From positions 1 through 37,118 of the IMG/VR virus record IMGVR_UViG_3300020416_000023: DNA of 37,118 nucleotides, one strand, 5' to 3'. The number at the start of each line of letters is the position of its first letter. Position 1 is the first letter of the stretch. The notes beneath the pieces were generated by a model, which had not been told where the DNA came from, made no database searches, and worked only from the letters and a program-made list of their open reading frames with translations. This document shows positions 274 to 35,995 of this stretch, one piece after another. The position numbers were made by a program, and so were the translations under genes. The DNA is from a virus.

Positions 274-1557
274 TTAATCTCCTAATGGATTGTAGCGTAG
301 ACCACTAGCTTCTTTTTGCGGTGGTCGTAACTGATTTAAATCTAATTCTTGGTGTGCAACTGCTATGTATCTCCAGCAGTCTGCAAAATGACTAGACCAG
401 TCATGTACAGGCCTAGAAAATGTTTTATCCTTATCTATAAACTTTCTGTGATACCATTTCATGGCATCCAAAAAAGGTTTACATTTTTCTCTATCTACAA
501 AAGTTTTTGATAGCAGCATCTGTCCTGCGTGCAGTCCGTCTTCAATTGGCAGCTTTGGACATATCTTGATAGGACGCATCCCTAACTGGTAAGCGTACTC
601 TTGCCTAGAGTGTCCAGTTGACATCTCTCTGACAGCCACATCATGTGGAAAAATGTAATTCCTAATTAAATAATTACGTTCTTTTATTACTTGAGCATAA
701 TGATCAAGGCCATAATTGCTATTAGAATAACAGTCAATGACGAATAATCCTCTACCAATTGTTTGAGTGAATAAAAGACACGTTTGATCGGAGATGCCCA
801 AGTCGAAATATACGTCCACAGGGAATCCAGCATCATACGGATATAGTCCAATTCTTTTCTCCTTTTCAAGTTTTTCTATGTATTTACCATAAATTGCACC
901 TGATACATTAGCTGTCCAGCTGCACTCAAACTCTTGCATGTACTGATCTTCGGTCATCAGTTTTTTTGCAGAGTCAAGCTCTTCTTTCGGCAAAAGTTTT
1001 GTGTCACTTACCTTAAACAAGCATGTAAACCACTCTTTATTTGCCTTAGCATCCTCATACAGATGATAAAACGCATCCATACCATTAGGCGTACCTATAA
1101 AAATAACTTTGCCCTGACGGTCAGCTATGGCTGGTCTTTGCACCTCACTAAACATTCTGCTGTCCATTTGGGCATATTCATCATTAACAACTAGATCTAG
1201 GCGTAACCCCCTTGCAGCATCTATGTTTTCTGAACCAAACAATGTTATTCTTGAGCCGTTTGGAAAGTCGGCACGCAACTCAGTTTCGTTAAACTTCATG
1301 CCAGGTATCATTCTTGAAAATTCCTTGACATAATCCCAAGCCACTTGCTTTGCCTGGACTCTTGTGGGGCAGAAAAAAGCTCCACGGAAATCTTTATACT
1401 TTGTGATCAAAGCTTCTTTGATCAGATGATTTATCGAAAATATAGTTTTACCACCTCGTCTATGCATCACGCAGACGGCAAATCTGTATTTTTGCAAGGC
1501 ATCATGCAACAACTTTTGTTGTGGTCTAGGACTATAAGGTATTTTTATAACTTCCAT
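274..1557 (-). CDS. terL: Terminase large subunit (DNA packaging motor)
   Basis: This is the 427-residue packaging ATPase and headful/cleavage nuclease that docks on the portal. The N-terminal ATPase has a Walker A-like HRRGGKT at residues 32-38, a Walker B segment LDLVVNDE ending at D126/E127, and a GTPNG coupling motif at 155-159. The C-terminal RNase H-like nuclease has candidate metal-binding acids at D252 in VYFDLGISD, at H305/D306, and at D393 in FADCW. Length is slightly short but complete for podovirus enzymes. The ATG overlaps by one base the stop of the 58-residue gene upstream, and the small terminase gene lies further upstream, so the three form a packaging operon. Confidence 0.95.
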   Translation of the reverse strand: MEVIKIPYSPRPQQKLLHDALQKYRFAVCVMHRRGGKTIFSINHLIKEALITKYKDFRGAFFCPTRVQAKQVAWDYVKEFSRMIPGMKFNETELRADFPNGSRITLFGSENIDAARGLRLDLVVNDEYAQMDSRMFSEVQRPAIADRQGKVIFIGTPNGMDAFYHLYEDAKANKEWFTCLFKVSDTKLLPKEELDSAKKLMTEDQYMQEFECSWTANVSGAIYGKYIEKLEKEKRIGLYPYDAGFPVDVYFDLGISDQTCLLFTQTIGRGLFVIDCYSNSNYGLDHYAQVIKERNYLIRNYIFPHDVAVREMSTGHSRQEYAYQLGMRPIKICPKLPIEDGLHAGQMLLSKTFVDREKCKPFLDAMKWYHRKFIDKDKTFSRPVHDWSSHFADCWRYIAVAHQELDLNQLRPPQKEASGLRYNPLGD

Positions 1558-9128: not shown

Positions 9129-10301
9129 CTAGCACCCCCCTAAAATAGCATCAATCTTATCAATATCATTGACCCATTTTTCTTGGTCTTTTAAAAGTTT
9201 TGCATAAACTTTCATAGTAAAACCAGGATCTGTATGACCTATGTATTTTGATATTTCAACCAGGCTATGCACATTGGCATCTAATAAGAAGCTAGCAAAG
9301 TAATGCCTAAAGCTATGTACACCACCGTGATATTTTACGTTACTAATTTTTTTAAGCTTTTGAAAATTACGTCTAAATGTTTCATAAACAAGCCATTTGC
9401 CATCTTTACCAAACACATAAACATCATCACTTTCGTCACTGTTATGCCATTGACGCAGTTTTCTTTTAACATTGCCAAATAACGGTATTTCACGCTTTGC
9501 AGCTGCAGTCTTACCATGATCTTTGAGTACCTCTACACCAGCATCTGTACGGCAGATAAACTTATTAATGTGTATTGTATTGCTGTTCCAGCCTATGTCA
9601 GCCCAGGTCAATGCAGCCCAGTCTTGCCATCTGCATCCCATCCAAGGGACAGTGCAAACAATAGCGTTGTACACACCGCTGCTGTTTTTGGCTAGTGCAG
9701 CAAGATCTTTCTTTGATGGTATCTCTACAAGATCAACTTCTTTGATCATGCGTTTCTTTTTAAATTTAAATGCACGCAGTTTGTTACTGTTAATTATTTT
9801 ATTAACTACGCAGGTATCTATAATATTTTTTGCATCAAACAAACAACGCCTAATTTTATCCTGGCTGCAGCCTAGGTCACGCAACTGAGCAATCAGCTGG
9901 TTGCAATCAGTAGCAACTAAATCTTTTACAGGTTTGTTTGCAAACTTTGTTTTGGCTATAAGCTCAGTGCATTGGTATTTTATATTGTGATATTCTTTGT
10001 CAGATAAATCACCGTTGTTAAGGTCGTATTGTTTTTGCTGCAAGTACGGATCAATAGCATCTACTAGGGTTACTTCTGTAAAGAATTGATCGTGGCCTGT
10101 TACATTGACTTTTGCACAGTAGGCGTTGGCAGCATCTAATGCAGCTTTTCTTGGTTTTGCATGTGATGCAAAATGAGTTGATGGATTGAACTTGCGAACC
10201 TTAGATTTAAGTTTGTTGTTTTCCATGTATGGAGCAACAACTTTAAACGCCTGTTTACCATCACTGTTTTTGTATGTTTGAACTGTTGCTGTTAGGTTCA
10301 T
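9129..10301 (-). CDS. int: Tyrosine-type integrase
   Basis: This 390-residue site-specific recombinase joins phage attP to the bacterial attB. The catalytic residues are in place: R224 in WMGCRWQDWAALTW, H329-x-x-R332 in GGVHSFRHYFASF, H356 in YIGHTDPG and nucleophile Y366 in TMKVYAKLL. The N-terminal 70 residues form an arm-binding region (MNLTATVQTYKNSDGKQAFK), followed by a SAM-like core-binding domain up to about residue 185. The gene points away from a tRNA-derived core at 10844-10871 and from repeats that could be arm sites. It lies 11 bases downstream of the 109-residue gene, with which it shares the promoter at 10688-10715. Confidence 0.95.
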   Translation of the reverse strand: MNLTATVQTYKNSDGKQAFKVVAPYMENNKLKSKVRKFNPSTHFASHAKPRKAALDAANAYCAKVNVTGHDQFFTEVTLVDAIDPYLQQKQYDLNNGDLSDKEYHNIKYQCTELIAKTKFANKPVKDLVATDCNQLIAQLRDLGCSQDKIRRCLFDAKNIIDTCVVNKIINSNKLRAFKFKKKRMIKEVDLVEIPSKKDLAALAKNSSGVYNAIVCTVPWMGCRWQDWAALTWADIGWNSNTIHINKFICRTDAGVEVLKDHGKTAAAKREIPLFGNVKRKLRQWHNSDESDDVYVFGKDGKWLVYETFRRNFQKLKKISNVKYHGGVHSFRHYFASFLLDANVHSLVEISKYIGHTDPGFTMKVYAKLLKDQEKWVNDIDKIDAILGGC

Positions 10302-13409: not shown

Positions 13410-14263
13410 ATTGTGTCAATTTTATTTGACTTCTCCATATCTTTTTTTTCGTTTTCTTCCCATGGATTATAGTAATCAAATTTTTCAATGTGCAAACAAG
13501 CATATGGAGTAAAATGGTTATGATACCTTTTTTCAAACGCTTCATATACAGGCACTTCTCCAATGTTAAATTTTTTTCTGACCTCTTCTAAATCACTTTC
13601 TAAAAAATCTAATGGACTACGGTAGCCAATATCTTTTACACACTTGTTTAAATTAGCTTGGCACTCTTTATACACTTGCCAAACACCCCTGTAATCTCCT
13701 GTTCTTTTTGCAACAGACCAGAAAACAAAGAAGCCGATTATCTTTGATGGTTTGTAATCTAATAAATGTCCTGTTATTTGTTGTACCAATCCTTCACCTA
13801 ATGCGTGAGTATTGTATCCAAAAAGTGTATGTAATATATCGTGTGAAATTACAACGTGACGAGATAGGTTTGTTCTTACAACATCAAGACGAGATTTTAC
13901 TTCGGCATCTTTAAATCTTTGGTTATATAAACTTTCTAGACCGTGATTTTTTACAATCTTATAATAGGCAGCACCCACTGTGTTTTCTGGTAAAGATGAT
14001 AAATATTCAAGATTCATTAATTTAGGTAAAATTGTTCTTTCGACATATTCTTTATCATTGTGTTTACGACCCCATACAATGTCTTGACCTAAAGTTGTTT
14101 GAGTAGCTTTATTCATCATCAATAAACCAAATGGAAATTGCATTTCTCGGTAAAGAGTTGTAACAGGAATACCAAGTTTATCCTCCTCCATCTGCTCCTC
14201 ATTTTTACTGTATATATTAACAATGTCATTTAATGATTTTCCAATTTTATATAAGTTCCACAT
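13406..14263 (-). CDS. Coq4-like protein
   Basis: Residues 35-230 of this 285-residue protein follow the Coq4 pattern: LPENTVGAAYYKIVKNHGLE at 91-110 and then HDILHTLFGYNTHALGE at 141-157. That is the HD-x2-H-x11-E metal-binding motif, complete, with H141, D142, H145 and E157. Near the end, SPLDFLESDLEEVRKKFNI matches the usual Coq4 C-terminal P-L ... V-R-x-x-x-x-I. Coq4 acts in ubiquinone biosynthesis, linked to C1 decarboxylation/hydroxylation of the ring, at the membrane. The acidic C-terminal 35 residues look phage-specific. It lies between tail genes and lysis genes, so it would be expressed late. It may alter host respiration or have been reassigned to a structural role. Confidence 0.75.
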   Translation of the reverse strand: MWNLYKIGKSLNDIVNIYSKNEEQMEEDKLGIPVTTLYREMQFPFGLLMMNKATQTTLGQDIVWGRKHNDKEYVERTILPKLMNLEYLSSLPENTVGAAYYKIVKNHGLESLYNQRFKDAEVKSRLDVVRTNLSRHVVISHDILHTLFGYNTHALGEGLVQQITGHLLDYKPSKIIGFFVFWSVAKRTGDYRGVWQVYKECQANLNKCVKDIGYRSPLDFLESDLEEVRKKFNIGEVPVYEAFEKRYHNHFTPYACLHIEKFDYYNPWEENEKKDMEKSNKIDTI

Positions 14264-19074: not shown

Positions 19075-21625
19075 AAAATTTATCTGCTAATCCTGGTGCA
19101 GATTGTGGCAGTTTTTCACCTGGTTGCCACCAGTAATCATTTCTATCTTCTTTTTTTGTTCTTTTTATCTTTCTTTTAACCTTTGATTTATGCTTGGGAT
19201 CAATCATTTCTGACAAATACTCAAACAAATATCTTTCTAAAACAAGTCTCATGTACCAAGCAGAAGCACCTGGACTATTTGCTCTCACAAATTTTGATAT
19301 ATCTCCACCCAAATTCATTTCTTTGTTAGGATCAGCTGCTTGATATACATTGCCGAAAACTAAATCTAGTGCCTGAAAAGTCAATCCAGCGGTTGGGCCA
19401 ATCACTTCTGCCGTTCTGCCAGCTACACCATCTATACTGTATCTACCACCGAATAACATATCACCAACAAAACCTAAACCTCCTCCATGCAGCATTGCAT
19501 TTAACCAGTATTTAGGATTATCGTAATTTTCTAAACTGCTTATGTTTTTGCCTTGTGTAACATTTTTAAGTTCGTGAGTTAATGCTCCAAATAGTGTGGT
19601 TGTAAATAAAAGTGGCAAGGCATAACCTAATTTGCCTTTAATGGTTTTTCTGTACACAGCTCTTGCCATGTGAGTGAACATAAATGTTAGTGGAAATTGT
19701 TTAAATTGTAGAATAGATCTCATTACTTCACCGACAACTGTACCTGGCCTTGTTCTACCACTTATGACTGTAGCACCTCTAGCGTTTGCAACTGGCACTG
19801 AATGATCGACCATATCCTGTACCATGTGCTGATATTTGTTAGCAAGATCTTGAGCTTGAGATGAAGATATATCATTGCGTGCAGCTATATCATCAGCCCT
19901 TAAATACAAAGCACCCTTCCAGTTTTTATCTTCGACACCTGCATCATACATTTTAGTTTTTCTTATAATATCCCACTCTCTATCTGTGATACCAAACTCA
20001 ACTAATAAATCTTTATTCTTTTTTGATAATCTTTTGTACGAGGTGTTAGAAATTCTTGCAAAATAAGCAAGTATTTCCATACCAGCACCCCATCTACCAG
20101 CTTGTGTAAACCAAGATAGCTGTGTCGTTCTTAAAACAATATCAGCCAATCTTCTGGAAAATTCATGTGACTCTATTGTATCAGCTGAATATCTTGACAT
20201 TGCAGAAGCCAGGGTTGTCCAATGCTCTGCCGCTAATCCAGAAGTTGCTGCAATTTTTAGCCTAGTATTTTTATCAACTCCTTTTAATGGTGATAAGAAC
20301 GTCTGTAAGTTGCTGTACATAGCTCTTGCAGCAGGTGTTCCAGAAAACCTTGCAGTTCCTCTTGTTAAATTAAAATCATTTAGAGCCATAAAAAAAGCAG
20401 AACCTAAATATGATGCAGTTGCTATTTGTCTTAGACTTGACATATTTTTTGCAGTTCGTGCATTTACAGGAATATTTAAATCACCTTTTAAGTAGTAATA
20501 CATGTTTTCAGTTGCTTCTATAGAAGTACGAGCTGAATTGATTGCTTTTTGTTGTTTGGATGCAGGTTGCAAGTTAGCCCACCTATTTACATCTTTACCT
20601 AAAGATCTAAGAAGAGAATCAGGATTTGGCCCCAGCACTTCCATCATAGCAATATCCCTAGACATTTTATCAATGTGCGTAACTGCAACGTTAAATAAAT
20701 CACCGTCACCAAACCTGTCAGTGTAAACTTTCCATGATTCAAAATCTTTGAAATGAATAAATCTATGATCTAGTTTTGAATTTGCTAACATTCTGCTTTG
20801 ACCAGTACCACCTAATTTAGTTACATAGCCGTTTGTAATTATATTGTTGTAAGCTTCTGATAAAGCTGTCTGTAATTCTGCATCATTAAAATTTTTACCA
20901 GTTTGATAGTTAATCATTTTTTCTCTATCAAGCATTGGTAAAACAAAATCTACCCATTCTTTAGCTGATATTGAGCCTACTTTTGTAGAATTGTGATACT
21001 GTGGAATATAATTAAAGTTAGCTTTTGGAATACTGCCTCCTGCCGCATTAAATCTAAGTCTTGCGTATTCAAAAGCTTCTTTTAGTGTAAGTGCAATTTC
21101 CTGTGCTGCTGTATTTTTTGTTGATCCAGGGCTATACATTTCTCTGCCAACCATTTCTAAATCGGCTTTATTTCTAGTTGAACCTATCAATGTATGTCTG
21201 TGATTTTTGATAAATTCAAACATGTGTTTTTGTATTGCACCTCTTACAACTCTCATTCTAATTTCAACGTTTTGATATTTTGAAGTACCCTCTGGTACTT
21301 CTAAAAATCCAACAATTCTTTTTAATGCTTCTGGTGGATCTATCTCACCTTTAAGATTTTTGTAATCTTCTAGTATATATTTTTTTGCTTTGTTATAGGC
21401 AATGCTTTGTTTAATCGTGTGTCTTTTTTTATTGATGTTTTTATATTGCATGCTTTCAAAGGTATCTTTACCTGCAAGCCTTGCAGCTTCAGTTTCTGTT
21501 TTACCTGCATCAATATGTTTTTTAATATTTGATAAATATAGTTCTTCTATACTTACTTGCTTTTTTTTATCAATTAAACCTTCTGCTGATAATTCCTGAA
21601 TACATTTAATAAAACTCATACGCAA
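19073..21625 (-). CDS. Internal virion/ejection protein (large core protein)
   Basis: This 850-residue protein occupies the place of T7 gp16 before the fibre gene and is probably packed in the head and ejected into the cell. It is mostly helical and basic. One hydrophobic stretch (ALPLLFTTTLFGALTH, near residues 665-685) could insert into the membrane. The C-terminus has features I recognise from podovirus ejection proteins: SPGASAWYMRLVLERYLFEYL, then a Lys/Arg-rich run and WWQPGEKLPQSAPG. No lytic transglycosylase domain is apparent, although T7 gp16 has one. The start overlaps the end of the polyvalent protein gene by 10 bases. Confidence 0.8.
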   Translation of the reverse strand: MRMSFIKCIQELSAEGLIDKKKQVSIEELYLSNIKKHIDAGKTETEAARLAGKDTFESMQYKNINKKRHTIKQSIAYNKAKKYILEDYKNLKGEIDPPEALKRIVGFLEVPEGTSKYQNVEIRMRVVRGAIQKHMFEFIKNHRHTLIGSTRNKADLEMVGREMYSPGSTKNTAAQEIALTLKEAFEYARLRFNAAGGSIPKANFNYIPQYHNSTKVGSISAKEWVDFVLPMLDREKMINYQTGKNFNDAELQTALSEAYNNIITNGYVTKLGGTGQSRMLANSKLDHRFIHFKDFESWKVYTDRFGDGDLFNVAVTHIDKMSRDIAMMEVLGPNPDSLLRSLGKDVNRWANLQPASKQQKAINSARTSIEATENMYYYLKGDLNIPVNARTAKNMSSLRQIATASYLGSAFFMALNDFNLTRGTARFSGTPAARAMYSNLQTFLSPLKGVDKNTRLKIAATSGLAAEHWTTLASAMSRYSADTIESHEFSRRLADIVLRTTQLSWFTQAGRWGAGMEILAYFARISNTSYKRLSKKNKDLLVEFGITDREWDIIRKTKMYDAGVEDKNWKGALYLRADDIAARNDISSSQAQDLANKYQHMVQDMVDHSVPVANARGATVISGRTRPGTVVGEVMRSILQFKQFPLTFMFTHMARAVYRKTIKGKLGYALPLLFTTTLFGALTHELKNVTQGKNISSLENYDNPKYWLNAMLHGGGLGFVGDMLFGGRYSIDGVAGRTAEVIGPTAGLTFQALDLVFGNVYQAADPNKEMNLGGDISKFVRANSPGASAWYMRLVLERYLFEYLSEMIDPKHKSKVKRKIKRTKKEDRNDYWWQPGEKLPQSAPGLADKF

Positions 21626-24600
21626 CTCCTTGTGACAAGCTCTCCTACAATAGCTTTGTCATTTTCAATATCGTCAACAAATTGTTTGTATGTCGTAGTT
21701 ATGTTTTCCATTTCATCACCTACAACTCTTTCACCTACTACAATTTCTAAATCATCTACATTATCCATAATACCTTCTCTTTCCTTGATAGCAGCATAAG
21801 TTGCATCAAAATCTTTTTTATCTTCTACCTCAAGTTTTGCTCTATCAAGTTCTTCCTCTTTTGTTAAAAAAAGTTTTTCTTTGTATTTTCTATAGGCACG
21901 ACCATTTTCAAAAGCCTTTAGCATATCTTTGTGGTGTATTTGTACTTCCATTGTAAATCCATCTTTTGCTACCATTTGTAAATGAATAGCCTTGTAACCA
22001 CTTGATCTATCTTTCAATGCAAAATAATTTTCTACATCCACTAATTTTACGTCCATTTCTTGTATTCTTTTGAAAACTTTCGTAACATCCTCCATACTTT
22101 CTACGGTAATTCTGCCACCTAAATAATCTGGAATTGTTGTTGCATCTCCTTGATCAGTACGTTCTTTTTTAGCAATTTTGTTCTTAACTTTGGCTAATTC
22201 TTTAGTCCTAACTTCTACCTTTACATTGTCTATATCTATCACTATATTATTAAGTGTAGCTTCTAAGTCAGGTTTATACTGATTTGCAAGTTGCATTAAT
22301 TCATTAACATCTTTTGTAGGTTGTACTATGACACGTTTAAAAACAGAGTTAAAATCACCGATTGAGATAGTATCGTCAATTCGTGATAATGGCGTTGTAT
22401 TGGCACTAGCAAAAACAGTTGATGATGGTTCAGCTCCAGTAGCCTGGAGTCCTATTAAGTCTTCCTGGATTAACGTTTCTGGTGATTTTACAGTAGGTGA
22501 AGTATTAATTGCACCACCATTAACTAATTCTGGGTTATTAGATGAAATTTCTAATTCATCCGAAAAAGCAGCTAATTCTTGATCAGCGTTTCTCTGATTT
22601 ACATTTAAATTATTAGGATCATCAAAATTTTCTAAGCTTTGTCTTTCGACAGTTGGGCTAGGTTCTTCAGATATTTTAGATGACGAGCCTTCAACAACTG
22701 CACTCCGTCTATCTCCGCTTGCACTAATCCCCTTAGTATCACCTCGTTCAATTGCTCCTCTGATAGCTTCGATAAAAGTTTCCGTTGCTTCTCGTTTGTT
22801 ACCATCTGCCCAAAGTTTTGCTGACCTTGTAAGAGCATCTGAGATGTCTCCTTTTCTGTTTGCAAGCGTTTCGATTTGGTAGATTGCGACTGCATTTTGT
22901 TCCTCCTGGGTTCTGTTATAACTTGTATCAAGTTTATTTTTTCCGTCTTCTATTATTCTTGCCTCATTTTGTATGAGGGTTGACATAACAGTTTTGTCTT
23001 TTTTTAACTTGTCAAGTGACGCTTTCATCACTTTGCCACGTTCTACAATTAAGCTTTCTTTTATAGTTGTCGTGCCAAACATGTCAATAGTTGTCACATC
23101 CCTACTGCCTGCTTGTAGAATACTGTCTATTTGTGTTCTCATCTCAATATCAGATGCAGGACGTGTTTTTTCTAATATTTTGATTACACTTAGATGCAAG
23201 GCTGGATCATCAACTAAATTACCTACAGCAGCTGCCAATCTTGCGTTCATGCCACTATTTAAATAATAACCCCATGCATCATCACTTAATTTATACAAAG
23301 CCGTTGAATACCTATACAATGATGAATTTGGTGCTACTTTGTTTGCCATCCTCGTTATGTAATTAGGATCAACTCGCAAAGCTCTTGCGACATCAACTGC
23401 ATCAGCTGTGCCTTGTTGCACGTTTCTAATCATGGCTTCACCCATAACTTCTTCTGCTGTAAATCCGTCTACTTCTCGTCTTACAGTAGCATTTATTGTT
23501 ATGTTAGCGTCTGGATCAGCTGCTTGCAGCCTTTTTGCAAGTCCTAATCTTTGGTGTCCGTCAGCTATAACGTATGTTCCGTCTTCTCTTTGAAACACCA
23601 TTAATGAACCTGCTGCATCTCTATCCCATTGTTTTACCTTTGCTAGCGTATCTTTTACGCCTCTAGCATCTCCTCCAGTCTTAAATTGAAATGTTTCTGC
23701 GTCAAATATAATATCTTTTGGATTAAGATAGACATCATACGCTACAGGTCTATTTTCTTTTACAACTACAGGAACAGATGATTGTTCAAGCATCCTTGGT
23801 TGTTCATTGTTTATTAACGCATCAGATGCAGCTTCCATTCTCCTAATATGCTCTAATGTGCCGTCAGCACCAGCCTCAAAAGGTTTTTCTAAATTATCGT
23901 CAATAGAATTTTTTATATCTTCTATTGCCATTTTAACTTTTGATTTATTCAAAGCAGTAGGATTTATTTGTTCAATAAACATAACCAACTCAGTGGGTTC
24001 TAGTTGGTTCATTTGTTTTCCAATAAATTCTAAAAGAGCCTCATCACTTAAATTTTCATCAACAAAAAATTTTGCTTTTAAATCTGGTGATAAAGATGAA
24101 ATAGCTTTTTTGGCTTGCGTTGCTGCTGCTGAGTAACCAGCTTTTAATGCAACTCCAGTACCAGCAAAGACTGACGGTATAGATGCACCTAATAACGTAG
24201 ATAGCAAAACAACTTTTGCAGCGTCCTCTACTGTATATTCTATACCAACGCTTTCTTTAAATGGCAGAACAGATGCTTCAATAGCTGTAGTAGCTCCAAA
24301 TGCTATAACTGCCTCTGCAGCTGTTACTCTTAATAAATTTGTTGTAAAAGAAAAACCAGACCCATAAGCAAAACCAAATGGTATAGTTGATAATATTAAA
24401 GGATCAGTAAATCCTGCACCCATGCCACCAACTAAAGTACCAGCAATTCTATCAAAACCATTTTCTGCATACTGATTTACTAAGGATAAATTTGCTGCAC
24501 TTTGTCTGGCTTTTTCAGCTTCTTTTTCAAAAAAGAAATTAAATCCATTATATTTTTCTCTTTCTTGTGGCGGTATCTTTGATAAATATTTTTGTATTTT

Positions 24601-24948
24601 ATTTTGTACAAATTTCTTTTTTTCAAAATGAGTTATGTCTGCGTTCAAAATAGCTTCTTCTGGGCTTGAGCTATAACTCATAGATTTTATTTCCATTTCT
24701 CTACGTTCAAACTCAGTAAGTGGTAAATCTGGTCTGTAAACATCTACTTGGGGTATGTCAGCGTCTGGAAATTTTTCATTAAAATCATTTATCATTGCAG
24801 AAGTTGCTGCTATGTCAGTTTCCATAGCAGACATAGAGTTGTGATATTGTGCAAAATCATAAAAGGCTACTGACATATTGTCTTGAAACCCTTGTGGATC
24901 TATTTGCATGGCTTGTGTATTGCTTTTAAGTTTTTCTTTTTTAAACAT
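21616..24948 (-). CDS. Polyvalent internal virion protein with ParB-like and RelA/SpoT-like domains
   Basis: This 1110-residue protein lies among the internal core genes and is probably co-injected with DNA. Two hydrophobic regions (about 168-230 and 243-275) may cross membranes. Residues 400-530 resemble a ParB/DdrB-type domain: RPVAYDVYLNPKDI, VIADGHQRLGLAKRL (D463-G-H-Q-R467) and AMIRNVQQGTADAVDVARAL. Residues 914-1020 look like a RelA/SpoT synthetase: R914-x-K916 ... K924, D941-x4-R946 in PDYLGGRIT, SGYKAIHL (Y985, H989), MEVQIHHKDM (E1001, Q1003) and GRAYRKYKE. All positions known to bind metal or nucleotide are present; only the Ser of R-x-K-x3-S is Lys. It could make (p)ppGpp-like alarmones or pyrophosphorylate another target. 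Activity is inferred. Confidence 0.75.
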   Translation of the reverse strand: MFKKEKLKSNTQAMQIDPQGFQDNMSVAFYDFAQYHNSMSAMETDIAATSAMINDFNEKFPDADIPQVDVYRPDLPLTEFERREMEIKSMSYSSSPEEAILNADITHFEKKKFVQNKIQKYLSKIPPQEREKYNGFNFFFEKEAEKARQSAANLSLVNQYAENGFDRIAGTLVGGMGAGFTDPLILSTIPFGFAYGSGFSFTTNLLRVTAAEAVIAFGATTAIEASVLPFKESVGIEYTVEDAAKVVLLSTLLGASIPSVFAGTGVALKAGYSAAATQAKKAISSLSPDLKAKFFVDENLSDEALLEFIGKQMNQLEPTELVMFIEQINPTALNKSKVKMAIEDIKNSIDDNLEKPFEAGADGTLEHIRRMEAASDALINNEQPRMLEQSSVPVVVKENRPVAYDVYLNPKDIIFDAETFQFKTGGDARGVKDTLAKVKQWDRDAAGSLMVFQREDGTYVIADGHQRLGLAKRLQAADPDANITINATVRREVDGFTAEEVMGEAMIRNVQQGTADAVDVARALRVDPNYITRMANKVAPNSSLYRYSTALYKLSDDAWGYYLNSGMNARLAAAVGNLVDDPALHLSVIKILEKTRPASDIEMRTQIDSILQAGSRDVTTIDMFGTTTIKESLIVERGKVMKASLDKLKKDKTVMSTLIQNEARIIEDGKNKLDTSYNRTQEEQNAVAIYQIETLANRKGDISDALTRSAKLWADGNKREATETFIEAIRGAIERGDTKGISASGDRRSAVVEGSSSKISEEPSPTVERQSLENFDDPNNLNVNQRNADQELAAFSDELEISSNNPELVNGGAINTSPTVKSPETLIQEDLIGLQATGAEPSSTVFASANTTPLSRIDDTISIGDFNSVFKRVIVQPTKDVNELMQLANQYKPDLEATLNNIVIDIDNVKVEVRTKELAKVKNKIAKKERTDQGDATTIPDYLGGRITVESMEDVTKVFKRIQEMDVKLVDVENYFALKDRSSGYKAIHLQMVAKDGFTMEVQIHHKDMLKAFENGRAYRKYKEKLFLTKEEELDRAKLEVEDKKDFDATYAAIKEREGIMDNVDDLEIVVGERVVGDEMENITTTYKQFVDDIENDKAIVGELVTRSCV

Positions 24949-27177
24949 TTAATTTGCTATGCTGCTGTAGATTTTTTTTATATCAAATATGACAGTGTTT
25001 CCTTCTATATCTTTTACGACAATATCTGAAGTTTGTGGATTATCACCAAACACAAAAATGTATTCTCCGTTTCCATAAGGTAATAAATGAACCCTGCTTT
25101 GATCAAATAGGTCTTCTGCTTTTGCTTCTCTTGCTCCTCCAGTAGTAAGTTCATTTGGAAAATATGGCATTGAGCTTACTGCTGCTTTTAACAAAGAATC
25201 AGTCATATTATTATCTAGCATTTCTTCTAATGTATCTTTACCATCACCAAATTCTGCATTTTGATGATACGTTCTATTATAAATAACGCCTGGAACAATG
25301 ATTCCGTGTCCATTGTACATTTCTATACCACCATAGCCATTAGACATGCCAGCCGCTATATTTACTGCTTCAATCATTTTATCAGAAAAATCTGGATCTA
25401 CATATTCGTAACCTATTGCTGCATCTGGATCGTTTAAAATAAGACCTTTAAAAATTAAATCAGCTGCATTGCTTATAGCTCGAAAATTTTTTTTGTTATC
25501 TAATACAGGACTCATTTGAAAAGTTTTGAGCATGTCTTGTTTTATATGAATATATTCTGGTCTTGATACTTTTGCTTGGTTCAAAAGATTTTTAGTTTGC
25601 TCATCATCTTTCAAAGTATATGCTTTGATTGCAGCTTGTAATTCTTTTGTCTCGCCAGTTAAATTTAATAAAGTGCCTATGTGAGCTATACCTTCTGCAT
25701 TTTTAATACTTCCAATTTCACTAAATGCATTTGCACCTAGCTCTTGGGACATAAGGCTTACAGTCGATATTAGTTTTGTAACAGCTTCTTCAGATCCACT
25801 ATTTAATATTCTTTCTACTTGCTGTAATTCAACAGGCATAAAAAATTGTGGTTCTACATTATACAAAAGACCAGCAGATAAGGCGTTGTTATATCTCTGA
25901 CCTATCATGTTCATTGATTCTTGACTTTGTAGATCTATTTGTTCGAAATCTATAACCTGTACATTGTGACCTGCACTATTATAAACACCTAATATATTTG
26001 TTTTTTCATTCTTTTTTCTAAAATCAATATACTCTTCTAATTTTTTCTTTTTTGAAAGATTAATGGAATCAAAATTTTCTGTTCCTGAAGTGTTAGCTAA
26101 CACAGTATTAATATTATTTAGTTCTGCCATTACCGCTTGCATAGTCATGTTTTTTATAGGCATGATAAATTCATAAACATCCATAGCATGATTTAAATCT
26201 TGTAATTCTTCAGTTATAGGATCTTTGCCAACGCTTACAAGTTGTTGGTTTAAATTTATTGCTCTAGCAACTGCATCCTGAATTTTTATCACGTCTGGTG
26301 CGTAATCTTGTTCTATGACATTCGTGATATGTTTTATTTCTTCTTTCAGTGAACTTTTTGATTCTTCTAATTGTGCAATAGCAATGTTTTGCAATTTTGC
26401 ATTTTCAGCATCCGCATTTTTTTTCAAACCATTTTTTGTTTCTGGCTCTAAACCATCATAAGCTCCTCCGTCATGCAATTCGTAAAATTTTTGTAGATCA
26501 GTTCTTATCAATTGGTTTGCGTGTAAAACAGACAACTCGTCTTCTAGGTTTTTATTAAATTGTGCTTTACTTAAATTAGGCTTCATGTTTGCTCTTTCTA
26601 ATCTGTCATACATACCTATTACTGTGTCACTACCAAAAATATTCTCCTCCTGCATTTGTTGTACTATTCTGTTATTTTCTGCATTTGCTGAAAGCCAGGT
26701 GTTAAAAAATAAATTTTTTGAATCATTTATATCTTCAACCACAGCTTCTCTATTGTTTGTAAATATAGAATTTTCAATAGATGGATAATTACCTCTAATT
26801 AAGCTGTTTGATTTATTAAAAAACCACTCTGCTGCTGACGGATTATCTACCTTTGTTCTTTCATATATAACGTTTGCAGCTGCTTGAGCTTCTTCAAAAT
26901 AGTTTGTTGCACCGTTTTCAACGTCTTTACTTGTTTTATATTTATTGAAAATGTCATTGTGTGTTATGGTAAACTCATTCAAATTTTCAGTGTTTAACCT
27001 GTCATCTTTTATACGCTTATTTTTTTCATAAACGGTCATAGCAACGTCTGCTACTTTATCTGCAAATCTGGAAACTGCGTTTCCAACTTCTTCAGCCCCA
27101 GTAGATATACCTGGTCTATTTTGTGTAGATGGTAATTTAGGCTGTGTTTGTGATTGATATGTTGGTATTTTAACCAT
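24949..27177 (-). CDS. Internal virion protein, gp15-like
   Basis: This 742-residue protein is long, acidic and almost entirely helical, with a Pro/Gln/Thr-rich start (TYQSQTQPKLPSTQNRPGIS) and a Gly-containing early helix (EEVGNAVSRFADKVADVAM). No membrane span or enzymatic motif is visible. In T7-like phages the gene between the gp14-like and gp16-like genes encodes the tube protein of the ejection apparatus (gp15), which has the same size range and helical character. The assignment is by position and composition. The C-terminal part (VHLLPYGNGEYIFVFGDN) is strand-like. Confidence 0.7.
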   Translation of the reverse strand: MVKIPTYQSQTQPKLPSTQNRPGISTGAEEVGNAVSRFADKVADVAMTVYEKNKRIKDDRLNTENLNEFTITHNDIFNKYKTSKDVENGATNYFEEAQAAANVIYERTKVDNPSAAEWFFNKSNSLIRGNYPSIENSIFTNNREAVVEDINDSKNLFFNTWLSANAENNRIVQQMQEENIFGSDTVIGMYDRLERANMKPNLSKAQFNKNLEDELSVLHANQLIRTDLQKFYELHDGGAYDGLEPETKNGLKKNADAENAKLQNIAIAQLEESKSSLKEEIKHITNVIEQDYAPDVIKIQDAVARAINLNQQLVSVGKDPITEELQDLNHAMDVYEFIMPIKNMTMQAVMAELNNINTVLANTSGTENFDSINLSKKKKLEEYIDFRKKNEKTNILGVYNSAGHNVQVIDFEQIDLQSQESMNMIGQRYNNALSAGLLYNVEPQFFMPVELQQVERILNSGSEEAVTKLISTVSLMSQELGANAFSEIGSIKNAEGIAHIGTLLNLTGETKELQAAIKAYTLKDDEQTKNLLNQAKVSRPEYIHIKQDMLKTFQMSPVLDNKKNFRAISNAADLIFKGLILNDPDAAIGYEYVDPDFSDKMIEAVNIAAGMSNGYGGIEMYNGHGIIVPGVIYNRTYHQNAEFGDGKDTLEEMLDNNMTDSLLKAAVSSMPYFPNELTTGGAREAKAEDLFDQSRVHLLPYGNGEYIFVFGDNPQTSDIVVKDIEGNTVIFDIKKIYSSIAN

Positions 27178-27187
27178 GTTCTAACCT

Positions 27188-27679
27188 CTATCCTATTTCA
27201 CTAATTGTAGCACCACCAGACAGGAGTGTCTCTCCTGCACCTAAATATGCTGCTTTTTTTCTATTTTTGCCTCTTGCCAATGCCGCTGCACCTTGCATAC
27301 GTTGAATGACACCAGTTTCTATTCTATCTGCTGAGTCGACTTTTGCATTGTACATAATTACTTCTTTTTCTATTTCAGCTTCAGCATACATTTCTTGCAA
27401 TACCTCTAATGGCGTTCCTTCAAGACGAACACCAGATTTAAATATAGACATCTGACTTTCTGAAACTAATTTATCAAAATCTTTTTGAAATATAGCAACG
27501 TTTCTCTTGCCAAGATCTAAAGCTTGTTGTGCATCTAAATCTGCTTTTTGTGCGTTACGTTCAGCAATAGCTTGATTAGCTTTGCCCTCTGATTCTGCCG
27601 CTTTACCTGCTGCTATTTGTCCACCAGCACTGACAGCGGTTGCTCCTGCTACTAGAGCTATTGTTACTGGATCACCCAT
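27188..27679 (-). CDS. Internal virion protein, gp14-like
   Basis: This 163-residue protein begins with a small-residue hydrophobic segment (PVTIALVAGATAVSAGGQIAAG) followed by a long charged helix (AAESEGKANQAIAERNAQKA) and an Ala/Gly-rich end (KKAAYLGAGETLLSGGATIS). T7 gp14 and its relatives have the same design and form the outer-membrane pore of the ejection machine. The ATG shares its first base with the stop of the GNAT-like gene upstream. The gp14 assignment relies on layout and order rather than sequence identity. Confidence 0.75.
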   Translation of the reverse strand: MGDPVTIALVAGATAVSAGGQIAAGKAAESEGKANQAIAERNAQKADLDAQQALDLGKRNVAIFQKDFDKLVSESQMSIFKSGVRLEGTPLEVLQEMYAEAEIEKEVIMYNAKVDSADRIETGVIQRMQGAAALARGKNRKKAAYLGAGETLLSGGATISEIG

Positions 27680-28116
27680 TAAAAAACCCTCGCATATAAA
27701 TTATAATCCTCTTTGTCCATATATTGTTTCATTACACCTTCTGATTTTAATCCAAGCCATTGTGCAAACTTATGTCCTATTTCAAAATCAGATCTAACTG
27801 TCGTTTGTAATCTTTCAACTTTGTTATCTATCATAACTCTGTCAAAAATTTTTTTTATTATTCTAGCCGTCTGAATAGGATAGTCATGTATATCAATTGT
27901 TGCCATAACCCATCCTTCGTAAACATTACCCCACATATTAACCATACCTCCTGCTGCAATAATTTTATTTTCAATTAATCCAGTCCAGCTCATACCAGGT
28001 TTTTCTAATTGATCTAGCATGTCTGTATATTCAGGTTTGACTTTCAATAGGTCGTTATTGAGTCTTCTTGTTGCTATAAATTTACCGTGTTCTGCTGTAA
28101 AAGGTATAATTTTCAT
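27679..28116 (-). CDS. GNAT-like protein in the gp13 position
   Basis: This 145-residue protein resembles a degenerate GNAT acetyltransferase: an opening KIIPFTAEHGKFIATR, a central strand pair (MSWTGLIENKIIAAGGMVN, then EGWVMATID), a helix TARIIKKIFDRVM, and a final KFAQWLGLKSEGVMKQY that fits the last GNAT motif. The acetyl-CoA loop (R/Q-x-x-G-x-G/A) is not evident, so it may be structural. T7 gp13 in the same position is needed for internal core assembly. It overlaps the nozzle gene upstream by one base. Confidence 0.7.
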   Translation of the reverse strand: MKIIPFTAEHGKFIATRRLNNDLLKVKPEYTDMLDQLEKPGMSWTGLIENKIIAAGGMVNMWGNVYEGWVMATIDIHDYPIQTARIIKKIFDRVMIDNKVERLQTTVRSDFEIGHKFAQWLGLKSEGVMKQYMDKEDYNLYARVF

Positions 28117-30641
28117 TAACCCTCGTACACAGTGACTTCAGGATAAATCGATAAAACCGTCAACGGCAATGGTTGTGTTTGTCTTACGAATACATGTCCG
28201 TCTGTTCCATAGTCATCTCTAAGCTCAATTTTTTTATCGCCAGAAAATAAAGCAACTGGTGAACCCATAAGTGCAGCTGATGACCTGAATGGTATATTTT
28301 CCATGTTATCTAGATCTCCACCTACTTCTACACCTAATGTTCTGTGCAGCCTTACTGTAATTTCATTTATACGTTTTATTTTTCCTTGAGCTACTCCTTG
28401 GGCTGCTCCTGCTTCTATTCTTAGAGTTTGCAAGATTGAATCATAGTTCAGGCCTACATGTACTTTTTGTGCAGATCTATCAAGTGTTATACCTCCACCT
28501 GTTACAGTTTTATTTGCGTGTGATGATCCGTCAGCAAGAATTTGTACTGTCTCTCCTTCTAAGTGATCTAATCCAGTAATAGTTGAAGTTAGATCTCCAT
28601 CATAAGTTAAACCACTATCTACAAAAAATGCATTGTCTTGTGTTTCACCAAACTCAAAACCTTTTAAAAATTCAACGTATCTGCGAGTTGAACCGTTTAT
28701 ATATCTGTTAGTAATCATATAGAGTTGATACTCATCCTGGTCTGATGGTATAACACCTATAGATTCTACTTTAGCATCTAATAATATTTTATCAGTTTGA
28801 ACGCCACTTGATGAAGTATCATATTGCAAATTTACAAAAGTTTTTACTTGTCTGTCAGATGCAATTTTAAATTGGTTTGCATCTATTCTTTTAACAAAAT
28901 ATTTTGCTCGATCAGTAATATTTGATAGTGCTGACCCTGTTATATCATAATAAAAATGATCACCAGTTGATAAACCGTGATTTGCAGAGTAGACAACATC
29001 AGTTGCAAGATTTACGCCCTCAAATATAAACTGCGTTGTGTCTGTACCAGGTGCTGTCGTTAAACTTACCTCAGTTCCTGCGGTTGCGTTTGCAGGCGTT
29101 GTAGCAAGTTTAATAGTATTGCTATTAACTGATATGATAAAATAAAGTAGATCTGTCGTAATACCGCCTATAGCATTACTTTCGGTAAAATAATAAACAG
29201 GATCTCCTGTACTAAATCCATGAGATGAAATTGTAATCTGGTTATTAGTTGTGTTCACATTAGTGCTATTAGCAGTAAAACTTTTAAAACTGTGAGATAT
29301 TGTTTTGCCGCTGTCGCTGTAGCCTCCAAGAATGTGTCTATGCCAGCCAATAACTTTTTCATTTCTTTGATAAGTCAATCCTAATAATGTGCCGTCATCT
29401 CTTGTAGCCCATAGAATACTGTCTGGCTCTTGCTGGTAAGCAAATGATGTTATTCCACCCTCAGTTATATGCTCAGCTAAGATTGTCATGTCTGGAGCAA
29501 TATATCCATCAACCTCATAGTTATATACTATTTCTCTAACTTTTCTTTTTGCACGCTGTAAAAACATTGTTACGTTTGCAATTTGTATTGCGTCAACGTT
29601 TGCAGCACCATAGTTGGTTTGTCTCGTTATCTGAATGTTAGTTGGTGTTATAGGCTCACTATTGCTTCCTGAAGTTGCTATAAACTCACCTCCAGTTGTT
29701 CCTATTAAAAGTTGTGTTTGAGCAGATAAAAACCTGATTGCATTTACTTGGTTTGATGCAATTGTATAAATCATTGCGTCTGTAGCGTTTGTTCCAGTAG
29801 CAAAGTTTTCATAAGATCCAGCCACACTAAAAAATATAGATTGAGGATTATTATTTGTTCCTGCAAACACAAGCCGCTGTTCATAAAAAGTTACTGAGCT
29901 TGGAAAATTATCTGTCGTAGACAGACCTGGACTGGGGTTGCCAGTGATATTACAAGCACTAATACTCCATGAGGTATGACCTGTTCTCGTAAGTTTTTGT
30001 ATTGCTACACTTGGATGCACTAAATACATAACGTCAGCTGATTGTGCGTATTTAATTTCAAATAATTGTGCTGTCGTATAAGGTGATGCAATTTGATAAA
30101 TACGAAAAGCTGTTCCACCTGATGTATAAGTTGTAAGTGAAGATGTATTAAAATTATTGCCGTCCATGTCTTGCAAAGCAAAAGTATTTGTTGTTACGCT
30201 GCTAACTTTAAATTGCCTGCCATTCAATTCTGTCATGCCAACAATTCCGCTTAATATTACATAATCACCGTTAGAATATCCGTGACTGCTGGCTGTTACA
30301 ACTCCAGGATTAGCTTTTGTTATTGCAGAAATGCTTTTACCTGTCTCTGTAATAATACCATTATCTTTGTGAAACCTTATATATTGGTTGCCGAACTCCA
30401 TCATGTAAGTTTGCGTAGTAGAAAACTCAAATGGTATTAGTCTTGTTTTGTTTGCACTAGATTTAACTTCACTAACAAAATTTGTTCCAGGTCTTCTTGA
30501 TGCACCACCGTGTGGATGAATAACCATGTTTTCTAATGTTTTGCATCCGTTAAAATATTTTTCTAAATCTGTTCTACCATCTAATCTAGGTGATAACTCA
30601 CCTGCTGTAAAATTAGTAAAACCAAATGTAGTTTTTGCCAT
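28116..30641 (-). CDS. Tail tubular protein B (nozzle), gp12-like
   Basis: This 841-residue protein is the tail nozzle. It opens with the family signature FTNFTAGELSPRLDGRTDLE, KYFNGCKTLENMVIHPHGG and ASRRPGTNFV, which is very conserved in podovirus nozzle proteins. The rest is beta-propeller-like, with repeated 'ITISSHGFSTGDPVYY', 'VVYSANHGLSTGDHFYY' and similar units, which recur four times and probably form inserted beta-domains. It lies next to the adaptor gene, as in T7. No enzymatic motif was seen. Confidence 0.9.
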   Translation of the reverse strand: MAKTTFGFTNFTAGELSPRLDGRTDLEKYFNGCKTLENMVIHPHGGASRRPGTNFVSEVKSSANKTRLIPFEFSTTQTYMMEFGNQYIRFHKDNGIITETGKSISAITKANPGVVTASSHGYSNGDYVILSGIVGMTELNGRQFKVSSVTTNTFALQDMDGNNFNTSSLTTYTSGGTAFRIYQIASPYTTAQLFEIKYAQSADVMYLVHPSVAIQKLTRTGHTSWSISACNITGNPSPGLSTTDNFPSSVTFYEQRLVFAGTNNNPQSIFFSVAGSYENFATGTNATDAMIYTIASNQVNAIRFLSAQTQLLIGTTGGEFIATSGSNSEPITPTNIQITRQTNYGAANVDAIQIANVTMFLQRAKRKVREIVYNYEVDGYIAPDMTILAEHITEGGITSFAYQQEPDSILWATRDDGTLLGLTYQRNEKVIGWHRHILGGYSDSGKTISHSFKSFTANSTNVNTTNNQITISSHGFSTGDPVYYFTESNAIGGITTDLLYFIISVNSNTIKLATTPANATAGTEVSLTTAPGTDTTQFIFEGVNLATDVVYSANHGLSTGDHFYYDITGSALSNITDRAKYFVKRIDANQFKIASDRQVKTFVNLQYDTSSSGVQTDKILLDAKVESIGVIPSDQDEYQLYMITNRYINGSTRRYVEFLKGFEFGETQDNAFFVDSGLTYDGDLTSTITGLDHLEGETVQILADGSSHANKTVTGGGITLDRSAQKVHVGLNYDSILQTLRIEAGAAQGVAQGKIKRINEITVRLHRTLGVEVGGDLDNMENIPFRSSAALMGSPVALFSGDKKIELRDDYGTDGHVFVRQTQPLPLTVLSIYPEVTVYEG

Positions 30642-32338: not shown

Positions 32339-33211
32339 CTATTCGTTGCACGGAATTTGGAATACTTTGACTTCTTCCATTCTAGTCGCACCAACTGACA
32401 TACAATAGTAAACTTGAGTTGAGTAGTTTTTGTCGTTTCTCTCGTCAATTTTAGCCATAATGTCCTTGCCAATAGCAAGTTTTACTGCGTCTTGAGTGAA
32501 GGCAAAGCATAGCCTGTCATCCGTGTTAGTTGCATCAAGGTTTAGTCTGTTAGAAGTGATAAATTTAAATCCTAAGAAAGAATCTATATCACCCTGAGCT
32601 AAAGCCTTAACGGTGTTAAAATCACTAGATTTTACTTCTGTAGTTGCCAACAAATCAGAAATTTGGTTTGGCCCACAGACAATATATCTAGGGATTGATG
32701 GATCAACGCTTTGTAAGTCAAAACGCTTTTTAGCAGCTAGTAACTTAGCAATAGTTAGTCCATCTGATTGGTTTGATGTCGAAAATTTACTTGCAGCAGG
32801 TAGAGCAACGCTTGTGCCACCAGATACGCCAGTAAAAGCTGAACCGCCCAAAGCACTAATGATAACGTCATCAATAGCTCTATTCATTGCAGCTGCTGCT
32901 GCTTTGGCATAAGAGCTTGTTGGGTCAATTAACATTCTTACTTTGTCAACATCATCTATAAGATCAGCCCACACATAGTCCTCAGTGCTTACTCGTCTTC
33001 TAGCATGTGGAGTGTCGAGTTGTGGAGTATCTGAGTGTCTTGACGTTTTCTTTACAGCAGCTACTGAGCCGATTTGTTCAAAAAACGCATTTTTTCCAGT
33101 AATACTCTCAACATCCACCGCAGCCCTGAGTTGCGAACCCATCTGTTGTGACAGCATTTGTACGTTAGCAGAATACTGCTCGACAAATGCAGTTGTAATT
33201 TGTGAACTCAT
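32339..33211 (-). CDS. Major capsid protein
   Basis: This 290-residue HK97-fold coat protein follows the scaffold gene. Visible landmarks include VEQYSANVQMLSQQMGSQLR at the start, VSTEDYVWADLIDDVDKVR, a long backbone helix region YAKAAAAAMNRAIDDVIISAL, and a C-terminal P-domain strand (FAFTQDAVKLAIGKDIMAKI). These fit the Phage_capsid_2/P22-like family found in many marine podoviruses. AAGGAGG upstream of the ATG gives very strong translation, as expected for the most abundant virion protein. Confidence 0.9.
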   Translation of the reverse strand: MSSQITTAFVEQYSANVQMLSQQMGSQLRAAVDVESITGKNAFFEQIGSVAAVKKTSRHSDTPQLDTPHARRRVSTEDYVWADLIDDVDKVRMLIDPTSSYAKAAAAAMNRAIDDVIISALGGSAFTGVSGGTSVALPAASKFSTSNQSDGLTIAKLLAAKKRFDLQSVDPSIPRYIVCGPNQISDLLATTEVKSSDFNTVKALAQGDIDSFLGFKFITSNRLNLDATNTDDRLCFAFTQDAVKLAIGKDIMAKIDERNDKNYSTQVYYCMSVGATRMEEVKVFQIPCNE

Positions 33212-34408: not shown

Positions 34409-35995
34409 TTACCCTCCTGTTAATTTATCAACCATTGGTGCAGCTTGACCAGCCGCTTGTGCTGTCTGCATCAATTGTTGTTGTTCTTGTGCAGCTGCCT
34501 CTTGTTCTGCTCTTTGCTGCCTAATTGCATCTATTTCTTGGTCAGATCGCAATACTTTTCTTGGAACTCCTAAAACATCAGTAACATGTTTTACAAGCAT
34601 GTCTGGATCAATATGATCCATCACTGGTAATCTGTCACTTAACGGAGCTATCATTTCCATAGTTCTTAGAATAGCTTGCACATCACCTTGTCTCTGTGAT
34701 CTAGCAAGCGGTGAAACATACTCAATATCTATTGTTTCTCCTTGCAGCTGCTCAGGTGGCACTGGCAGTTTATTACTTCTAAGTAAAATATTAAAAACTC
34801 TATCAATTAATGGACGCAGCATTTCCGCTTGCAATCTACCAAGTACAGGTGCAAGTAATCTCATTTTCTCTTCGTTACGTTGCATAACTTCCGTTGCGGT
34901 CATACGCTGACTTTGTTCAGATATAAGCTGATCAATCATATAGACTTGCTGTATAGCTTTGCGTCTTTGTTCTTCTAAATTTATTCCTACAGGAGTATTA
35001 GCACCAATATTTAGAGGCTCTATTCTATCTCTAGATCCTGATCTATAAAAATTTAACCCTCCTGGTTGTGTTCTTACAGGTAAAATAAAACTATCATCTG
35101 GAACTAAAAGCGGTGGATCTACCATTTTTTGTGCTGCTTTTATGGTTGTTTCTGCCATTTTATTCAGCATTTTAATATCAGGCAGGGCTGTCATAGATGG
35201 TGATCTACCATAAACTTCACTGCTTGATTTTAAATATCTTGGAACTATGTAAGGAAACTCATTGTAACCACCAATAGATATTATGTGGTTTTCTTCTTTG
35301 TGATAATAAATAGACGAATAAGCCATTGACTTATTGTCAAGCTTGTAGGGGTTTAGGTTGTCGTTAGGTTTTACGCAATGATGCAAGACAACTTCTTCAT
35401 AAGGATGATCTTTTACTTTTTTCAATACAACTTTTGGTAATGCATCTCCAAATTTTCTAAATGCCGCTTCAGCCGTCATTTTAAATTCACGGTGTACCGT
35501 GTCGACAATGCCTTTGTGATTTTCAGCAGCATAGACTTCGTTTATGTGCCTTGTATTAAAACGTAATATGTTTTGTTCATCAGGTTCTATAAGCATGCAG
35601 GCAGTACCAAACGCCACAAGGTCTGTATATATTTCGTGAACTTCTTGTTGAAAATTTGATCTTGCAAATGCCTGGTACATAATTCTTGTACTAGACTCTA
35701 ACCATTCTAGGGCTTGCTCATCTGATCTAAAAGACTCATCTTTAAATCTCATGTCAAACCAAGGAGTGGCCGAGTTTGTAAGCATGCTGTGTAAAGATGA
35801 TGATAATAATTCTAAGGCGTGTAAAGCCGTGCCATCAAATATATGTTCTGTCCTTTTGTCACCTCTGCTTCGTGATTTAGTCACGTCAGCTCTTCTTGGT
35901 AAACAAAAATCAGCTACTTCTTGCCAGTGTGACTCCCAGTTTGCTCTTGCCGATTTTAATTTATCAAATTGTTTTGTAAGTTCAGTTGCTTTCAT
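34409..35995 (-). CDS. Portal (head-to-tail connector) protein, T7 gp8-like
   Basis: This 528-residue protein forms the dodecameric DNA channel at one head vertex. Recognisable parts are the start (KSARANWESHWQEVADFCLP), a conserved HIFDGTALHALELLSSSLHS, the crown/wing region VYGRSPSMTALPDIKMLN and the clip/stem helix region EQRRKAIQQVYMIDQL. The C-terminus is Gln/Ala-rich (EQEAAAQEQQQLMQTAQAAG). Length and signature fit the podovirus head-tail connector family. The stop codons follow GGAGGG, which acts as ribosome-binding site for the next gene. Confidence 0.93.
   Translation of the reverse strand: MKATELTKQFDKLKSARANWESHWQEVADFCLPRRADVTKSRSRGDKRTEHIFDGTALHALELLSSSLHSMLTNSATPWFDMRFKDESFRSDEQALEWLESSTRIMYQAFARSNFQQEVHEIYTDLVAFGTACMLIEPDEQNILRFNTRHINEVYAAENHKGIVDTVHREFKMTAEAAFRKFGDALPKVVLKKVKDHPYEEVVLHHCVKPNDNLNPYKLDNKSMAYSSIYYHKEENHIISIGGYNEFPYIVPRYLKSSSEVYGRSPSMTALPDIKMLNKMAETTIKAAQKMVDPPLLVPDDSFILPVRTQPGGLNFYRSGSRDRIEPLNIGANTPVGINLEEQRRKAIQQVYMIDQLISEQSQRMTATEVMQRNEEKMRLLAPVLGRLQAEMLRPLIDRVFNILLRSNKLPVPPEQLQGETIDIEYVSPLARSQRQGDVQAILRTMEMIAPLSDRLPVMDHIDPDMLVKHVTDVLGVPRKVLRSDQEIDAIRQQRAEQEAAAQEQQQLMQTAQAAGQAAPMVDKLTGG

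Follow-up and report, generated by a model that had tools for sequence, protein, structure and literature searches.

A RelA/SpoT-type synthetase domain in a candidate ejection protein of an epsilon15-like marine podovirus

What might a RelA/SpoT-type synthetase domain be doing inside a protein encoded among the virion genes of a phage? The question is raised by the IMG/VR virus record IMGVR_UViG_3300020416_000023, a stretch of 37,118 nucleotides (the window), in which a single open reading frame (ORF) of 1110 residues, beginning with ATG, includes such a domain. A first-pass annotation had placed this ORF correctly at 21616-24948, and our ORF check of the window moved it to the minus strand. 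The explanation that we favor, with a probability of roughly 0.6, is that a marine podovirus of the epsilon15/phiV10 kind, probably temperate, encodes this product as its gp16-type ejection protein, and that the domain would serve as a virion-ejected pyrophosphokinase effector, most likely with a guanosine acceptor.

Several lines of evidence identify the domain. Residues 914-1024 matched the hidden Markov model (HMM) PF04607 with a score of 48.5 bits, where the gathering threshold is 27 (E = 1.2e-12), and a profile built from three members of the family recovered small alarmone synthetases of solved structure with E values between 2e-6 and 5e-6. An AlphaFold2 model of residues 870-1050 based on an alignment of 25 phage sequences reached a predicted local distance difference test score (pLDDT) of 92.9 and a predicted template modeling score (pTM) of 0.87; it was used in place of a model based on three sequences only, for which the pLDDT was 47. 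When this model was searched with Foldseek, RelP/RelQ ranked first (E = 5.9e-9, probability 1.0). In VIA, it was matched to Bacillus subtilis RelQ with pppGpp at a Z of 15.6 (root-mean-square deviation of 2.3 over 155 residues), followed by RelP (15.2), CapRel (14.9), Tas1 (12.7), and FaRel2 (8.8). The nearest relatives by sequence are also RelQ/RelP and Rel enzymes. A chance match or a misread motif is ruled out by the HMM, the fold, and the independent relatives described below. Thus, the claim of the first-pass annotation that a RelA/SpoT synthetase domain is present was borne out by an HMM search and a fold comparison, which are among the checks that it had put forward.

The active-site positions are retained as well. 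Every residue quoted in the first-pass annotation (R914, K916, K924, D941, R946, Y985, H989, E1001, and Q1003) was found where it had been placed. Aligned to solved enzymes, D941 and E1001 are the metal or catalytic residues, Y985 and H989 belong to the acceptor site, and R914-x-K916...K924 together with R946 belong to the ATP site; from the fold match and the alignment, these residues would be expected to cluster in space. K916, D941, Y985, A987, H989, E1001, and Q1003 were identical in 25 of 25 aligned phage domains, K924 and R946 were each present in 24, and R914 was present in 21. The DNA search pattern behind most of these domains specified G-Y, S/A, H, E, and Q in advance, which makes the identities at those positions partly built in; R914, K916, K924, D941, and R946 were independent of the pattern. 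Furthermore, all of the named residues were kept among the window and two full-length relatives (L089 and L092) despite divergence of about 50% across the domain, and the proportion of nonsynonymous differences (pN) was lower than that of synonymous differences (pS) in the same comparison (0.16-0.36 versus 0.61-0.76), with synonymous sites near saturation.

Gene order suggests how such a domain could be delivered. A tail protein, an internal virion protein of phrog_418, a protein in the gp15 slot, the 1110-residue protein, and a gp17-type protein follow one another as in the p14-p20 region of phiV10, which means that the 1110-residue protein fills the gp16 slot. By gene order, this marine short-tailed phage is an epsilon15/phiV10-like podovirus. 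Its 850-residue gp17-type neighbor is similar over its length to virion proteins of the phiV10/SPN1S type (28-29%), and to Dunaliella viridis virus SI2 (30%). The T7-like setting assumed in the first-pass annotation should therefore be replaced, since the gp17-type protein and the gene order fit phiV10/epsilon15 instead. Epsilon15 ejects internal proteins (PMC8954989), and two published accounts assign its core and injection device to gp17 and gp15/gp16 (PMC5850374, PMC12391199). The 1110-residue protein is probably also carried in the virion and ejected.

The protein itself has the usual plan of the gp16 slot, in which an N-terminal region is followed in most cases by a ParB-like core, then by cargo that varies, and at the C terminus by a tail whose cysteine is conserved. 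Similarity in the N-terminal region extends across many gp16-slot proteins, and its hydrophobic stretch is possibly a membrane or ejectosome part. The core is the slowest-evolving portion and is common to Dunaliella virus SI2, Ruegeria phage 45A6, and most marine relatives. It matches phrog_10691, a family without known function, and its likeness to ParB is one of motif (ADGHQRLGLAKR), with no Pfam ParB match to the 1110-residue protein at E values up to 1. The tail is common across the family as far as phiV10 and Shamal, and its C1109 is the sole invariant column among 44 gp16-slot proteins. We propose that this tail may function in docking or packaging.

Relatives of the protein place the domain in a wider group of phages. 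Of 80 IMG/VR loci chosen for encoding a gp17-type protein, nearly all had a gp16-slot ORF directly upstream of the gp17-type gene, mostly of 386-1482 residues. Among 50 records checked, the only PF04607 matches were the RelA relatives L088 and L089. The protein of L089 is full length, with 63% identity overall and 54% in the domain, and an identical copy occurs on L088; L092 encodes a second distinct full-length relative with the same arrangement. An assembly artifact as the source of the domain is ruled out, given that three other contigs, with one protein on L088 and L089 and another on L092, share the arrangement. Further RelA-bearing gp16-slot proteins were collected with a DNA pattern scan, which added L093/L126/L132/L146, L113/L115/L122/L129/L136, L133, L137, and L109. 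In a quick gp17 tree (LG+G4, long branches), eight of the RelA carriers came together in a single group with good support, and L109 fell elsewhere. The ORF of L109 (5794-9879, minus strand) has a permuted order in which the RelA/SpoT region lies ahead of the ParB-like core. We found no near relatives of the domain in the sequenced phages of INPHARED, where matches were weak and remote. Likewise, no cellular source was found in one genome-contig scan with a three-sequence alignment, whose patterns were narrow enough that absence is not implied.

The position occupied by the domain holds other enzymes in related phages. Between core and tail, we found either Zeta toxin domains (L015 with E = 5e-19, L017, L040, and L067) or RelA/SpoT domains; elsewhere in gp16-slot proteins there were PBECR1 (L053, below cut-off) and the cell wall hydrolase domains SLT (L071) and GH108 (L006). 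Clustering of 52 cargo regions was done with trimmed flanks, as untrimmed shared flanks merged Zeta with RelA, and gave one cluster of 25, 17 Zeta regions, six canonical RelA regions, and four singletons. The cluster of 25 matched the RelA profile in hhalign at 99.1% (E = 2e-18), compared with 0.3% for Zeta cargo, which served as a negative control. Three of its members (L019, L031, and L032) look GNAT-like, while about 22 are diverged RelA-fold domains, which in most cases keep the equivalents of D, E, and Q; the equivalents of R946 and H989 have been lost. By eye, the singletons resemble a HELAH metallopeptidase (L065), ART (L071), PBECR (L077), and GNAT (L073).

Comparisons between contigs indicate how this diversity arises. 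Up to residue 714, L015 and L020 are 93.6% identical in DNA (6.1 kb), and from residue 1028 on the identity is 98.3% (2.6 kb); between these matching flanks lies a Zeta domain in L015 and a diverged RelA-fold domain in L020. The same swap was seen when L026 was compared with L025/L029, where identity was 98% upstream and 99.4-99.7% downstream; an insertion or a stretch of lower similarity, located ahead of and inside the core, is a further difference in these pairs. Cargo of the L020 type recurs in L027 and L028 and cargo of the L025 type in L029, which makes one chimeric assembly an improbable source of the pattern. Near-identical contig pairs thus differ mainly in the cargo block, and on this evidence the cargo, whether canonical RelA/SpoT, diverged RelA-fold, Zeta toxin, or rarely others, is swapped as a cassette. 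We regard it as an even bet that gp16 of epsilon15-like marine podoviruses is, more generally, a delivery chassis with a constant N-terminal region, core, and tail, and with a slot in which growth-arresting enzymes (alarmone or tRNA pyrophosphokinases, Zeta kinases, and others) are exchanged through recombination between nearly identical phages. Such a "polymorphic ejected toxin" system would be separate from MuF.

If the domain is delivered in this manner, the N-terminal part and the tail would bring the protein into the head beside the portal core and let it leave together with the DNA. On reaching the cytoplasm, the domain would transfer pyrophosphate from ATP to the 3'-OH of an acceptor, most likely GDP or GTP, which would yield (p)ppGpp. 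We favor GDP/GTP because the A-x-H syn3 position and R946 at syn2 are of the guanosine type. Measured against published signatures (PMC12226406), the window has GGR at syn2 and A-I-H at syn3, which is guanosine rather than Apk type (syn2 RYT, syn3 GxN), and syn4 (I-H) is mixed in type. During the first minutes after infection, host growth and translation could thereby be slowed briefly, or transcription in the host shifted, to the benefit of takeover, lysogeny, or the exclusion of rivals. The first-pass annotation had also read the protein as a possible preloaded effector, an interpretation that our results support in part. HMM, fold, synteny, and independent relatives support a RelA/SpoT domain in a protein of the ejection cluster, and the effector reading is strengthened because Zeta toxin domains occupy the same slot and cassettes are swapped; the accompanying claim to novelty did not fare as well (see below).

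The alternative that survives best, although we consider it unlikely, is that the domain modifies the 3'-CCA end of tRNA as a pyrophosphokinase like toxSAS/CapRel and halts translation upon entry. CapRel scores less than 1 Z unit below RelQ, lysines are abundant in the N-terminal part of the domain, and the PADLOC candidate PDC-S33 matches the domains of L089 and L092 (6e-9 and 3e-8). In addition, toxins of this sort are known to target tRNA (PMC11559606). Nevertheless, FaRel2 scores far lower in VIA, and the nearest sequence relatives are RelQ/RelP and Rel enzymes. Somewhat less probable is a domain that is catalytically dead, or that is a nucleotide- or RNA-binding or structural module of the ejection protein. 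R914 is lost in 4 of the 25 aligned domains, and many relatives have the strongly diverged RelA-fold domain that lacks the equivalents of R946 and H989, so that nonenzymatic use is conceivable in the family. Yet, the named residues persist in the window and its two full-length relatives against a background in which roughly half of the other domain positions differ, and a structural role poorly explains an interchange with kinase-type Zeta toxins. We give still less credence to a protein that is produced late and takes effect inside the cell that makes it, through host shutoff or superinfection exclusion, without delivery in the virion. The gene lies within the structural cluster and is presumably late, but that location is inside the group of ejection-protein genes, and the N-terminal region and tail are common to phages without cargo. 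Last, production of (p)ppApp with depletion of ATP, as by the type VI effector Tas1 or by Apk2 linked to MuF, is improbable, for even though the carrier is of the same kind (a phage head-associated protein) with a similar position of the toxic domain, Tas1 matches the fold, and Apk2 is the phage case that has been tested experimentally (PMC12226406), the syn2 and syn3 motifs in the window differ from those of Apk, and neither an iapK/aph1-like neighbor nor an HD_4 hydrolase was found in 14 records.

Certain observations count against a virion-ejected guanosine pyrophosphokinase. The evidence for presence in the virion is synteny, and the evidence for a packaging role of the tail is conservation. 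In VIA, the Z scores of RelQ/RelP (15.6-15.2) and CapRel (14.9) are too close to discriminate between acceptors. Within the domain, R914 has been lost in some gp16-slot relatives, and there are two deviations from textbook synthetases that the first-pass annotation had left unmentioned. First, the ATP-site serine, four residues after K916, is replaced by K920. Second, the RxKD position reads D-V-E-N, an acidic sequence that resembles ExDD yet is not identical to it; nearly all of the 25 domains have D/E followed by D/N there. RelA of Escherichia coli, with ExDD, is acidic at the same motif and active, and for this reason the acidic motif is not disqualifying. Finally, no adjacent immunity gene or HD_4 hydrolase was found in the 14 RelA-bearing records, several of which are fragments; in the window, there is no space for such a neighbor, since the gp17-type gene overlaps the gp16-slot gene at its end. 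In contrast to Apk2 systems, strong toxicity during late synthesis would therefore be problematic, and the lack of these genes suggests that activity is modest or conditional, or masked before ejection.

The general concept of such effectors has been published. RelA/SpoT, Zeta-like, and other effector domains were described in polyvalent proteins of phages or conjugative elements, with injection predicted (Iyer et al. 2017, PMC5512222). RelA-like MuF toxins have been listed, with head loading hypothesized (Jamet et al. 2017, PMC5576092), and MuF-linked Apk2 domains produce (p)ppApp (Paulet et al. 2025, PMC12226406). The remark in the first-pass annotation that no such enzyme is known in a virion therefore overstated the novelty. 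Like polyvalent proteins, the 1110-residue product is a large phage protein encoded among virion genes that combines unrelated domains (core and RelA/SpoT), and the effectors in common include RelA/SpoT, GNAT, PBECR, ART, Zeta-like, and peptidase domains. In that survey, however, RelA/SpoT was reported from MuF fusions and from (pro)phages of Spirochaetes and Epsilonproteobacteria, with epsilon15 and ejection proteins unmentioned; the protein studied here occupies the gp16 slot of epsilon15-like marine podoviruses and has a family-wide C-terminal tail. Polyvalent proteins of that survey have a DdrB-like ParB domain, and the likeness of the core to ParB here is one of motif. MuF/Apk2 proteins share a head-associated carrier with a RelA/SpoT-family pyrophosphokinase, for which head loading and injection are hypothesized and Apk2 activity is shown. 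They differ in that the carrier here is a gp16-type ejection protein with guanosine-type motifs, the cargo lies between core and tail rather than at the extreme C terminus, and the next gene is of gp17 type instead of the adjacent iapK and aph1 HD hydrolase. RelQ and RelP have the same fold and main catalytic residues, but they are stand-alone cellular enzymes, and small alarmone synthetases of that kind are single domains of about 200-250 residues, whereas here the domain is fused into a phage protein with K920 and an acidic RxKD position. Gp16 of epsilon15/phiV10 shares gene position and tail, although the phiV10 protein has 600 residues and is without ParB-like core or RelA cargo. A search that mostly did not extend to subscription papers and preprints found no literature on RelA/SpoT or Zeta cargo in epsilon15-type gp16. 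Taken together, a RelA/SpoT domain in the gp16 slot with this arrangement seems to be new.

Other phage proteins with RelA/SpoT-type domains came to light. Large proteins with the domain off the C terminus and no gp17-type neighbor were present in L094, L096, L097, L100, L119, L120, L127, L130, L142, and L143; several have 1250-2850 residues, and they represent further polyvalent-protein contexts. A recurrent RelA/SpoT-type protein of 410-470 residues in L099, L116, L134, L141, and L148 has an insertion before its GYRAVH motif (DKFGHPANKDGYRAVH). In Bordetella phage PHB04 (L004, MF663786; 4167-6432), a 493-residue protein directly after the portal gene matches PF04607 (E = 4e-7) and is followed by a 69-residue ORF and a 192-residue HD_4 hydrolase, which is the apk2-iapK-aph1 toxin-immunity layout.

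Table 1. Positions of the features discussed, numbered along the window.
Feature	Position	Strand	Basis or remark
Large terminase (PF03237)	274..1557	-	Profile match
Small terminase	1867-2334		
Tyrosine integrase (PF00589)	9129..10301	-	Profile match
gp17-type virion protein (phrog_684; phiV10 p20-like), 850 aa	19073..21625	-	Overlaps end of gp16-slot gene
gp16-slot ejection-type protein carrying RelA/SpoT domain, 1110 aa, ATG	21616..24948	-	ORF and synteny with phiV10 p14-p20
C-terminal tail common to gp16-slot family, residues 1066-1110, conserved C1109	21619..21753	-	Tail comparison of gp16-slot proteins
RelA/SpoT-type synthetase domain, residues 870-1050 (modeled region)	21799..22341	-	PF04607, profile, AlphaFold2, Foldseek, VIA
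PF04607 match within domain, residues 914-1024	21877-22209	-	HMM
Conserved core, residues 399-735, ParB-like by motif	22744..23754	-	phrog_10691, E = 7e-40
Hydrophobic segments, residues 168-271, N-terminal region	24136..24447	-	Hydropathy scan; N-terminal similarity across many gp16-slot proteins
gp15-slot protein	24949..27177	-	By position; no family match
gp14-like internal virion protein (phrog_418)	27188..27679	-	E = 1e-13
Tail protein (phrog_376, gp12-like)	28116..30641	-	
Major capsid protein (PF19821)	32339..33211	-	Pfam
Head-tail connector/portal (PF12236)	34409..35995	-	Pfam

The remaining genes help to describe the phage (Table 1). With terminases at the left end and genes for connector, capsid, tail, and internal virion proteins, the window suggests a near-complete, permuted genome, and the tyrosine integrase makes it probable that the phage is temperate. 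A peptidase M15 protein (12319-12702, minus strand) is a probable endolysin. A 285-residue protein (13406-14263, minus strand) matches Coq4 of ubiquinone biosynthesis above the cut-off (PF05019, E = 2.8e-7), which is unusual in a phage.

If the favored explanation is true, an alarmone or tRNA pyrophosphokinase that enters with the DNA could be among the earliest enzymes at work in a marine bacterium upon infection, and the system would make it possible to test directly in what way, and for what purpose, phages engage the stringent response at time zero. A swap-in slot with a constant tail would amount to a natural experiment on the effectors that phages choose. More generally, the constancy of the tail points to a possible signal for loading proteins into podovirus heads.

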